DNA from: Gemmatimonadaceae bacterium
Lineage (GTDB): Bacteria; Gemmatimonadota; Gemmatimonadetes; Gemmatimonadales; Gemmatimonadaceae
Length of the DNA stretch: 64,000 bases
Assembly: GCA_019637445.1 (NCBI GenBank)
Contig: JAHBVS010000001.1
Span: forward strand, 248,001 to 312,000
Reading direction: 5' to 3'
Made by a program: the position numbers and the translations under genes. This document shows, piece by piece, positions 22,847-36,512 of this stretch. Each line of letters opens with the position of its first letter. The stretch's first letter is position 1. The notes beneath the pieces are model-generated. The model was not told the DNA's origin, did no database searches, and worked only from the letters and a program-made list of their open reading frames with translations.

Positions 22847-22984
22847 CAGCGGAATCTGTATGACGTCCGTAAGCGTGAGCAATGACGCGGCTTGACCCGT
22901 CGCGTTCCGGTATCTATCTCGCAGGCTTCCCAGCGCGGTGCATCACCATCGCGCCGCCACCAGTGTCGGAGAATCTCGAGCTTG

Positions 22985-24271
22985 ATGTCCCGCCTGACCC
23001 TGCGCCATACGGCGCTCGCGTCCAGCCTGTGCTGTGCCCTCGCCGCCCCCGCCGCCGCCCAAGAGCGGCCTGATCCCTCGGCCATTGGCAACGGCCCCAG
23101 AGCCCTCGGGATGGCCCAGGCCGTCACGGCCGTCGTCGATGACATCACGGCGATTGGCTGGAACCCCGCCGGCCTGACGTTCCTCGAGCGCCCGGAGTAC
23201 GGCTTCGTCAGCCGTGTGATGGTGATGGCCACAGGTGTCACCGCGACCACGAACCGAGTCACGCCCAGCGGTTTCCCGCGCTTCACCGGTGACGGTGAAC
23301 TCGCGGGCACCTTGGACGCGCTCGAGTTTGCTGGCATTGCCGTGCCCTTCCAACTGGCTGGCCGAACCGTGGCCGTCGGGGTCGCCTACCGGCGCTTCGC
23401 CGAGACCCCGCGAGTGGGCGCGTTCAAGGTGAACCGCCTCGAGAGCAACGGACGCTATTTCAGCACCACGCGGTATTTCGTCGAGGAGGGCCTGCGGGCG
23501 ATCTCGCCCACGGTGGCCGTCGCCCTCAGCGACCGCCTGCGCCTCGGCGTGACCGCGAACCTGCTCGGCGGCGAGGAGAAGTACGTGGTCGACGGGCCCA
23601 TCGCATTCAGCGGTTCCGAGGCCACGCGGCGGGTGCGAAGGACGCTCATCGATCGCGACATCTCCGGTCTGGCCCTCGACGTCGGCGCGATGTTCCAGGC
23701 CACCGAGCGCCTGCGTATCGGCGTTCACGCGACGCTTCCCCACGACCGGCAGTTCACCCGGGTGGACTCCACCGGAGAGATTGCCGCGACGCGGCAGGCA
23801 CCTCTACAACTGAACGTGGGCGTGGCGCGGAAGATGGGCACGAAGTCCGTGTTGAGCGCGGATGTCCACTTGGCGCCCTGGGCCGCCATGGACCTCACCT
23901 CCGACGCGGACGGCTCCGACATCCCGACCCGCACGGGCGTCGGCGATGCCACGGGCGTCCACGTTGGCTGGGAGCGGGACTTCACGAACTACGACCGCAA
24001 GTCCGCCATCCGACTCGGCGCCTTCGTCCGCCGCACCAGCTTCGTCTCCTTCGACGACAAGCAGGTCAGCGCCTACGGCGCCACCATCGGCCAGAGCTGG
24101 TACTACGACTCCTGGAGCTTCGACGGCGGTGTCCTGCTCGGGCGCTCGACGCGCTGGCTGCGGTCCCAGGCCACGGACACGGACGTTTCGCTACAGAACA
24201 CGGATCTGGTCGTGTCGCTTGGGCTGCGGTGGCACATCGGCAAGCCTCGCGGTTCGGACGGAACCAACTGA
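22985..24271 (+). CDS. FadL/OMPP1-like outer-membrane protein
   Basis: 428 residues from ATG 22985, which begins a clean signal peptide (ALASSLCCALAAPAAAQE). The mature N-terminus has GPRALGMAQAVTAVVDDITA then IGWNPAGL, the sequence typical of FadL/PorV-type barrels (N-P-A-G). The rest alternates polar and aromatic strands and ends in LGLRWHIGKPRG. Likely a 14-strand transporter for a hydrophobic compound, or a PorV-type scaffold. An inverted-repeat element begins right after its stop. Confidence 0.72.
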   Translation: MSRLTLRHTALASSLCCALAAPAAAQERPDPSAIGNGPRALGMAQAVTAVVDDITAIGWNPAGLTFLERPEYGFVSRVMVMATGVTATTNRVTPSGFPRFTGDGELAGTLDALEFAGIAVPFQLAGRTVAVGVAYRRFAETPRVGAFKVNRLESNGRYFSTTRYFVEEGLRAISPTVAVALSDRLRLGVTANLLGGEEKYVVDGPIAFSGSEATRRVRRTLIDRDISGLALDVGAMFQATERLRIGVHATLPHDRQFTRVDSTGEIAATRQAPLQLNVGVARKMGTKSVLSADVHLAPWAAMDLTSDADGSDIPTRTGVGDATGVHVGWERDFTNYDRKSAIRLGAFVRRTSFVSFDDKQVSAYGATIGQSWYYDSWSFDGGVLLGRSTRWLRSQATDTDVSLQNTDLVVSLGLRWHIGKPRGSDGTN

Positions 24272-24462
24272 TTACCACGGAGACACGGAGACACGGAGAA
24301 CTACAGCCCGCCTGATGTACTCCGTGCCTGCTCTAGGGGTTATCTGAAGGGGGCTCGGCGGACAGATCTGTCCGCCGAGCCCCCTCAGTACTTGCCCCCG
24401 AGTCGAGCAGCGATGCCTCCGCGCGTCCCGACAGACTCCGTGTCTCCGTGTCTCCGTGGTAA
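24272..24462. repeat. Inverted-repeat element with perfect 27-bp ends and a central 38-bp palindrome
   Basis: The element starts at the base after the porin stop. Its ends (24272-24298 and 24436-24462) are perfect inverted repeats built from TTACCACGGAGA then ACACGGAG units. In the middle, 24348-24385 is a perfect palindrome with 19-bp arms (AGGGGGCTCGGCGGACAGA and its complement), extended by CTGA/TCAG with one bulge. No coding capacity. It lies between convergent genes and could act as a bidirectional terminator or be a non-autonomous mobile element. Copies of the end sequence recur at 27251-27342 and 36421-36512. Confidence 0.85.
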
Positions 24463-24613: not shown

Positions 24614-25660
24614 CTACTTCTCGTCCTCCGCGTCCTCGGCGACCACCTGCTTGTTGATGCCGAGCACCGCCTTGACCTTCTCCTCGATCTCCGCCATCAC
24701 GGCCGGGTTGTCCTTCAGGAACAGCTTCGCATTCTCGCGGCCCTGCCCGATCCGCTGCGACCCGTAGCTGTACCAGGCCCCCGACTTCTCGATGATCCCC
24801 GAGTCCGCGCCGATATCCACCAGCAAGGACACGTGCGAGATCCCTTCCGCGTACATGATGTCGAACTCCGCCTGACGGAACGGCGGTGCCACCTTGTTCT
24901 TCACCACCTTCACCCGGACGTGCGAACCCACCACGTCCTCCTTGTCCTTCACCGGGCCGATGCGGCGGATGTCGAGCCGCAGCGACGCGTAGAACTTCAG
25001 GGCCTTGCCGCCGGTGGTCGTCTCGGGACTGCCGAACATCACCCCGATCTTCTCACGCAGCTGGTTGATGAACACCACCGAGCAGTTCGAACGGGCAATC
25101 GCACCGGTCAGCTTCCGGAGCGCCTGGCTCATCAGGCGGGCCTGCAGGCCCACGTGCGAGTCGCCCATCTCCCCCTCGATCTCGGCCTTCGGCACCAGCG
25201 CCGCCACCGAGTCCACCACGATCACATCAACCGCCCCACTCCGTACCAGGATCTCGCAGATCTCGAGCGCCTGTTCGCCGGTGTCCGGCTGCGACACCAG
25301 CAGCTTCTCGACGTCAACGCCCAACTTCGCAGCGTAGTCCGTATCCAGCGCGTGCTCCGCGTCAATGAACGCCGCGGTGCCGCCCAACTTCTGCGCATTG
25401 GCCACGACGTGCAGACAGACCGTCGTCTTGCCGCTGCTTTCCGGTCCGTAGATCTCGGTGATGCGGCCCCGCGGGAATCCGCCGACGCCAATCGCGGCAT
25501 CGAGGTTGATCGCTCCCGTCGGAATCGCGTCCACCTTCACCTTCGCGCCATCCTTCCCCATCTGCATGATGGCGCCCTTCCCGAACGACTTCTCGATCTG
25601 CGACACCGCAAGGCCCAATGCCTTCTTGCGATCGTCCTGCGCTGCCACGGTCGTAGCCAT
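24614..25660 (-). CDS. recA: Recombinase A
   Basis: 348 residues. The ATG at 25660 has a GAGG site six bases upstream. Features: N-terminal helix with [20 protein letters not shown], Walker [29 protein letters not shown] (loop 1 region), [16 protein letters not shown] (loop 2 region) and an acidic tail [10 protein letters not shown]. It forms filaments on single-stranded DNA for recombination and SOS induction. I did not find a match to the E. coli or B. subtilis LexA box in the 300-base leader, so SOS control cannot be claimed. Confidence 0.98.
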
Positions 25661-25963
25661 CGTGTACCTCGGGGAGGTGAAAGGGAATCTACCTGCTGGG
25701 GGGCGAGGGGCTACCCCCGAAAGAACGTCGAACTTTCCGGGTGTCTCCCGGACACCGAACAAATGGCGAATCGCCACGCGGTCCGCAAGGCCCAATTTTG
25801 CTCAGTTTCGCAGTCTCAACAGCTGCCGGATACTTTCTGAACAGCACTATGTAGATTTTTGATATCGCTATGCTCTGTAATGTTTTAAGTGGTATTGGAG
25901 GCGTGGATTATCTGAGGAAAATCTGTTGACTGACACAAGTTTTCCACACTTTTCCACAGCCGG
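25661..25963. other. AT-rich recA/yraN spacer with two DnaA-box-like repeats
   Basis: A 303-base gap. The half next to recA is ordinary GC-rich leader. From about 25845 the DNA is markedly AT-rich for this genome (GATTTTTGATATCGC, TGTAATGTTTTAAG) and ends in two direct copies of TTTTCCACA at 25940-25948 and 25950-25958, exactly ten bases apart. This motif fits the DnaA box (TTWTNCACA). The yraN stop follows five bases later. It could hold the recA promoter, a DnaA-responsive site, or both. Confidence 0.45.
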
Positions 25964-27250: not shown

Positions 27251-27342
27251 AACAGCATTTGCCACGGAGACACGGAGACACGGAGAACGGCAATGCTGGT
27301 GCTGTTCTCCGTGTCTCCGTGTCTCCGTGGTTTAAAGCTGTT
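27251..27342. repeat. CACGGAGA-type hairpin element, copy 2
   Basis: Perfect 27-bp inverted repeats (27262-27288 and 27304-27330) made of CCACGGAGA and CACGGAGA units flank a 15-base loop. Outside them AACAGC (27251-27256) and GCTGTT (27337-27342) add a second stem after short unpaired spacers. It lies between the ftsK stop and the start of the downstream lipoprotein, so as RNA it would form a very stable hairpin at an intra-operon boundary. Confidence 0.85.
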
Positions 27343-36420: not shown

Positions 36421-36512
36421 CCACAGAGGCACAGAGACACGGAGAATGCATCACTCAGGTTCGCTGGAGCCTCTCCGTCAGCCGAACCCTCTGTGCCTCT
36501 GTGTCTCTGTGG
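36421..36512. repeat. CACGGAGA-type hairpin element, copy 3
   Basis: Arms 36421-36444 (CCACAGAGGCACAGAGACAC, then GGAG) and 36489-36512 are inverted repeats matching at 21 of 24 positions. Inside, GGTTCG (36458-36463) pairs with CGAACC (36483-36488), continuing with CTG/CAG around one bulge. It is a diverged relative of the elements at 24.3 and 27.3 kb and ends seven bases before the rarA stop codon. Confidence 0.75.

Follow-up and report, generated by a model that had tools for sequence, protein, structure and literature searches.

Bacterial MITEs are short, gene-less sequences with terminal inverted repeats that derive by deletion from gene-bearing elements. In REPIN-RAYT systems, short inverted motifs form intergenic hairpins in many copies, and their single-gene partner is believed to work in trans and to evolve along with the repeats (PMC3116915, PMC8266576). 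The 191-bp hairpin element described here, from a Gemmatimonadaceae genome (G000), is itself MITE- or REPIN-like, and its novelty lies in the partner enzyme. As in REPIN-RAYT pairs, short inverted motifs build multi-copy intergenic hairpins with a single-gene partner; unlike in those pairs, whose enzyme is of the HuH/Y1 type, the partner is a predicted PD-(D/E)XK nuclease of the GxxExxY family, the arms are tandem CRCRRAG octamers, and the gene sits between the arms. Like bacterial MITEs, the family is short and gene-less, has terminal inverted repeats and, in one related genome (G015), includes deletion derivatives; unlike them, it comes with no classical transposase that we could find, shows target duplication only in G015, and has arms that are octamer arrays of variable unit number. 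We put the probability at roughly 60% that the 191-bp feature is a non-autonomous, MITE-like miniature of a mobile-element family with the form arm, GxxExxY gene, arm.

The element occupies positions 24272-24462 of the window, the whole 64,000-nt stretch that was analysed, in the order arm, spacer, central palindrome, spacer, arm, as delimited by a repeat search and aligned with 21 other copies of ~185 bp. Its left arm (24272-24298, plus strand), made up of TTAC, two tandem CACGGAGA octamers and CACGGAG, and its right arm (24436-24462, minus strand) are 27 nt each and 100% complementary, with CACRGAGR as the general form of the octamer. The center holds two 19-nt halves (24348-24366 and 24367-24385) with 0 nt between them, that is, a perfect 38-bp palindrome at 24348-24385, which is present in other ~185-bp copies, some of them with paired changes on both sides. 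Upstream, the TGA stop of a 459-codon ORF (22892-24271, plus strand, 459 aa) ends at 24271 and the element begins at the next base; downstream lies the convergent recA gene (24614-25795, minus strand), identified by eye from its translation. The ORFs listed within the element all cross its arms and none is a plausible gene. The perfect 27-bp terminal repeats, the perfect palindrome, the start directly behind a stop codon and the lack of coding capacity had all been pointed out in a sequence-only reading of this DNA, and each is borne out here. At -128.4 kcal/mol, the predicted RNA fold of the element is much too stable for a chance hairpin (z = -11.5), and none of 200 shuffled sequences equals it. 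Searches for a known RNA led nowhere, the Rfam matches all being sub-threshold chance hits, mostly of miRNA models on the palindrome, and no sigma-70 promoter was found at the element. The central-palindrome class also occurs in congeners (L170 and L171; G086 and G203), in G086 without octamer arms, and may represent a separable terminator-like module.

Within the window, the 15-mer CACGGAGACACGGAG has 20 matches with up to 3 mismatches, against 4.6 expected, and exposes two further elements: one of ~69 bp at 27262-27330 with CACGGAG arms, the subfamily of the 191-bp element, and one of ~92 bp at 36421-36512 with CACAGAG-type arms. Genome-wide, CCACRGAGRCACRGAG has 63+66 exact matches versus 1+0 for its reversed control. 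We read 65 places, comprising 60 fetched stretches, the three in the window, L156 and L031; a script paired arms at 57 of them, and after removal of one spurious pairing (L172) 56 copies with paired arms remain, 52-430 bp long, the eight places without paired arms being L178, L188, L193, L194, L209, L212, L217 and L219. The genome-wide copy count proposed in the sequence-only reading thus returns 56 paired copies for a feature that could have been unique. By their arms, the 55 copies that measure 60 bp or more fall into a CCACAG subfamily of 45 and a CCACGG subfamily of 10, the latter including the 191-bp element. Lengths cluster at 170-200 bp (27 of 56 copies), and all copies except one are no longer than 314 bp. 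The motifs GAACTGC and GGATCTGTGCGCTGAG, found directly outside the arms on either side, are common to the G000 copies; they are not paired within a copy, and other genomes have other motifs (L232-L251).

The copies favor the 3' ends of genes: by a crude ORF rule applied to the 56 copies, 33 lie between convergent, 20 between tandem and 3 between divergent genes, with 23 nt as the median gap between stop codon and arm. An alignment of 22 of the 27 copies in the 170-200-bp class, including the 191-bp element (L184, L185, L186, L203 and L204 were excluded for a different interior), further reveals that at 11 of 39 consensus pairs at least one copy is altered on both sides with pairing kept. It is this placement, together with the compensatory changes and the very stable fold, that could speak for selection by the host, with the hairpin kept as a bidirectional terminator or at mRNA 3' ends and its spread incidental. 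We consider this improbable as the whole explanation: no intrinsic terminator with a GC-rich stem and T tract was detected on either strand between 24000 and 24800, the double-sided arm changes mostly reflect the difference between the two subfamilies, and more than 50 family copies would be left unexplained, as would the gene-bearing relative that shares their ends. Of the strong two-way terminator previously suggested, what stands is a possible effect of the hairpin, given the 33 of 56 convergent settings under the crude ORF rule, and what falls away is the T-tract terminator. A terminator role for the host is moreover compatible with either nuclease-driven or transposase-driven movement. 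Concerted evolution of the two arms within the genome was also considered and is not claimed, as the overall permutation result (0 of 5000) gives way to 1909 of 5000 and 195 of 5000 within the subfamilies; inside each subfamily the arms of one copy are hardly more alike than the arms of different copies, which counts against the miniature-element reading.

A profile search finds a sole GxxExxY (TIGR04256/PF13366) match in the genome, at C1:1771227-1771565, and the gene sits exactly between arms at 1771194-1771216 and 1771599-1771613, with its ORF starting in or near one arm and ending near the other, in an arm-gene-arm unit of ~440 bp (C1:1771189-1771628). The left end of this element (L031), TTACCACGGAGACACGGAGACACGGAGAACT, is identical over 31 nt to that of the 191-bp element counted from 24272, and its arms belong to the same subfamily; the 191-bp element therefore has a gene-bearing relative within its own genome. 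With scores of 131.3 bits against a curated cut-off of 35 for TIGR04256 (E 2.1e-38) and 128.9 against 22 for PF13366 PDDEXK_3 (E 1.6e-37), the gene between the arms is assigned as a full-length member of the GxxExxY family. D64, E74 and K76 are invariant across 79 GxxExxY sequences and fit the D...ExK catalytic residues in the core of the fold. In an AlphaFold2 model (pLDDT 97), the closest structures by VIA-align are Cas4 SSO0001 (4ic1; Z 9.7 over 100 residues), a restriction-like protein (7.9) and the archaeal resolvase Hjc (7.0), while Foldseek returns nothing below E 0.001, its best match (0.013) again being SSO0001, which we take to be a Cas4. The likeness to Cas4/RecB-type PD-(D/E)XK nucleases and to Hjc is one of fold class alone; unlike these, the GxxExxY protein measures only ~120 residues and matches no solved chain by sequence. 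Profile and model together define it as a predicted PD-(D/E)XK nuclease with a Cas4-like fold.

The search for a gene with matching ends, suggested earlier with a transposase or RAYT in mind, has thus turned up GxxExxY rather than RAYT. That the repeats are REPs or REPINs moved by a RAYT (TnpA_REP, an HuH/Y1 transposase) is very improbable: their short inverted repeats, folded as intergenic hairpins in many copies, look similar to REPINs (compare PMC3116915), but the genome holds no match to Y1_Tnp (PF01797), where the same search is positive in 5 of 14 control genomes, and the partner gene encodes a predicted nuclease of another class. The REP-like half of the earlier interpretation is accordingly abandoned. 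Its MITE-like half gains ground from the many copies with the same arms, the gene-carrying relative with the same ends and the deletion derivatives in a relative.

The arm-gene-arm arrangement extends well beyond this genome. We collected 81 GxxExxY loci across many phyla, among them archaeal ones (L088, L134) and one on a viral contig. With L072 and L121 dropped for lying at contig edges, 79 were scored. Inverted repeats scoring at least 13 flank the gene on both sides within 250 bp at 57 of the 79, whereas windows shifted along these loci give 2 of 264. The 22 loci that lack a clear flanking repeat weigh against the miniature-element reading. In the phylum sample, the same score is reached at 14 of 30 GxxExxY loci versus 1 of 150 control windows. 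Arm variants include CACAGAG, CACGGAG, CGCAGAG, CACGAAG and others. Most share CRCRRAG, in many cases preceded by TTNACC, but at a few of the 57 loci (L075 and L139, for example) the inverted repeat is of another kind. A rough tree of the 79 proteins was built from few columns, and many of its forks are unresolved. On it, the arm types GAG/AAG and CAC/CGC each require 12 changes. For GAG/AAG, shuffling gives a mean of 17.5 and a value as low in 0 of 500 runs, and again in 0 of 500 when confined to phyla; for CAC/CGC the mean is 15.9, with a value as low in 6 of 500 runs and in 40 of 500 when confined to phyla. Arm type thus clusters on the nuclease tree, and arms and gene tend toward joint inheritance. 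Phylum labels change 42 times on that tree (minimum 17, shuffled mean 54), a spread compatible with, though no proof of, much transfer. Overall, it is well supported that arms and gene form one mobile unit.

Among viral sequences, IMG/VR contigs contain at least 120 stretches with three arm units in tandem and no mismatch (L292-L411), while GxxExxY occurs in no record of the phages collection and in 8 plasmid records. In two near-identical viral contigs (L343, L368), one arm differs by one 8-nt unit at each of two elements, so arrays change by gain or loss of units. At one site shared by related viral contigs, CACAGAG octamer arms (L376:4792-4871) are found in one and GGAGAAGG/GGAGATGG arms (L297:8286-8397) in another, which may point to sister families whose arms use different units.

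Gene and repeats are likewise associated across the phylum, where GxxExxY is present in 61 of 200 genomes. Those with at least 10 matches of CRCRRAGRCRCRRAG, a cut-off chosen after inspection of the table, number 33 of 200, and GxxExxY occurs in 30 of these 33 versus 31 of the 167 others (counts made by hand; Fisher p 1.7e-15, uncorrected for relatedness). Among 50 genomes behind GxxExxY loci chosen for flanking repeats, 35 have at least 10 matches, with controls that are partly inflated in this set because tandem octamers also fit the reversed pattern. Two groups of genomes count against the miniature-element reading: three repeat-rich ones (G174, G048, G115) have no GxxExxY match even at E 10, and the 31 named above carry the gene and few of these repeats.

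The gene-less genomes could also be read the other way, with hairpin repeats that were there first, spread by another route and were invaded by GxxExxY as a nuclease gene of homing or parasitic type. PD-(D/E)XK homing endonucleases are known, one of them, I-Bth0305I, is among the fold matches, and hairpins of 50-190 bp without the gene are many. What makes this account doubtful is, besides the tracking of the nuclease tree by arm type, the recurrence in G015 of internally deleted GxxExxY forms: several copies retain just the first 28-50 codons of the gene between arms, and with such remnants inside, elements that once held the gene have turned miniature. In each of G065 and G079, one copy keeps both gene ends with the middle of GxxExxY missing. 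As judged from their sequences, the G015 copies are miniature elements that arose from an element with the gene and multiplied afterwards.

These G015 copies also provide the case for the main competing explanation, a MITE of a conventional transposase, where a DDE enzyme encoded elsewhere recognizes the ends and GxxExxY is a frequent passenger. Their common outer ends, GTAGTGGGTCAGTTT, lie ~50 nt farther out than the octamer arms, so that another enzyme could have moved the G015 copies, which counts against the nuclease-based account. In 5 of 7 paired elements, 8-9-bp direct repeats of the kind made by many IS lie at, or no more than 2 nt from, these ends (by eye). Yet the 8 end pairs span only 176-389 bp, which leaves an ordinary transposase no room; all of the ends viewed, 7 pairs and the single ones, belong to arm-bearing elements; GxxExxY is the only known gene between arms in the 56 G000 copies, 55 of them no longer than 314 bp; and the pairing of arms and GxxExxY holds over many phyla. 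We therefore regard the conventional transposase as unlikely, if less so than the other alternatives. As a separate matter, an IS110-family element (PF01548, PF02371) lies within the right arm of the G128 GxxExxY element (L035, after ~1900; L257), and a similar-looking IS end adjoins an arm in G015 (L429). Some IS110 members target REPs, and by analogy IS110 members may target octamer arms.

Insertion at defined sites is harder to trace. In the G000 copies target duplication is not above control at fixed or free offsets, and no empty site was found at the locus of the 191-bp element, where congeners do not conserve the upstream gene next to recA; both results count against the miniature-element reading, and both deprive the earlier suggestion that this copy is young of its backing. 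Arms are present at 0 of 12 recA loci of congeners, and the viral contigs contain no clean empty site. The site of the GxxExxY element itself, between the terminator-like hairpin of a 97-codon gene and the next gene (DinB-like, by eye), is filled in the same orientation with different arms in G000, G200, G204 and G128, lacks the element in G072, G125, G086, G182 and G188, and has an arm without the gene in G202. Two histories would fit this pattern, one ancient insertion with arms that changed later or several separate insertions behind the T tract, the spacers being too diverged for exact junctions. Two pairs of gene copies, each pair from a single genome (L070/L105, L110/L127), are not near-identical in their DNA and give no sign of recent doubling.

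In light of these data, the reading of the 191-bp element as a miniature of a GxxExxY element draws on observations of shared ends in one genome, a cross-phyla arm-gene-arm unit, a copy-number association, deletion derivatives, arm type tracking the tree, conserved catalytic residues and the fold class. From these we infer that the GxxExxY nuclease is the mobility enzyme, with the cutting, the intermediate and the reinsertion proposed as follows. The gene-carrying form measures about 430-520 bp overall, and its arms are inverted arrays of a 7-8-nt unit, CRCRRAG(R), usually with TTNACC ahead. The small Cas4/RecB-like PD-(D/E)XK nuclease would recognize and cut the octamer arms of its own element, perhaps extruded as a hairpin or cruciform, and would act in trans on gene-less copies such as the 191-bp element, whereupon the excised or copied hairpin would be reinserted with the help of host repair. 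Surviving copies would be those placed where a hairpin does least harm or is of help, just past stop codons and mostly between convergent genes.

In the literature covered, mostly papers open without subscription, neither GxxExxY as part of a mobile element nor these repeat strings are described, and the portions of text that name GxxExxY do so only in passing. Elements carrying a single small nuclease gene turn up in some archaea as well as in numerous bacterial phyla, which suggests a type of mobile DNA that has largely escaped attention. More tentatively, and with somewhat less than even confidence, we propose that GxxExxY elements constitute a distinct prokaryote-wide class: ~450 bp in length, with one Cas4-like PD-(D/E)XK nuclease gene, CRCRRAG octamer arms and no known transposase or recombinase, and with hairpin miniatures moved in trans. 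If the nuclease does move the repeats, these elements would be among the smallest known self-moving units, a family annotated only by its motif name would acquire a function, and the presence of a common repeat motif in very distant phyla would be accounted for; furthermore, a 120-residue protein and a ~70-bp hairpin would suffice to test how a lone PD-(D/E)XK enzyme can mobilize DNA. Should the mobility enzyme be another, gene and arms are still coupled across phyla, a regularity that is strong and easy to check.
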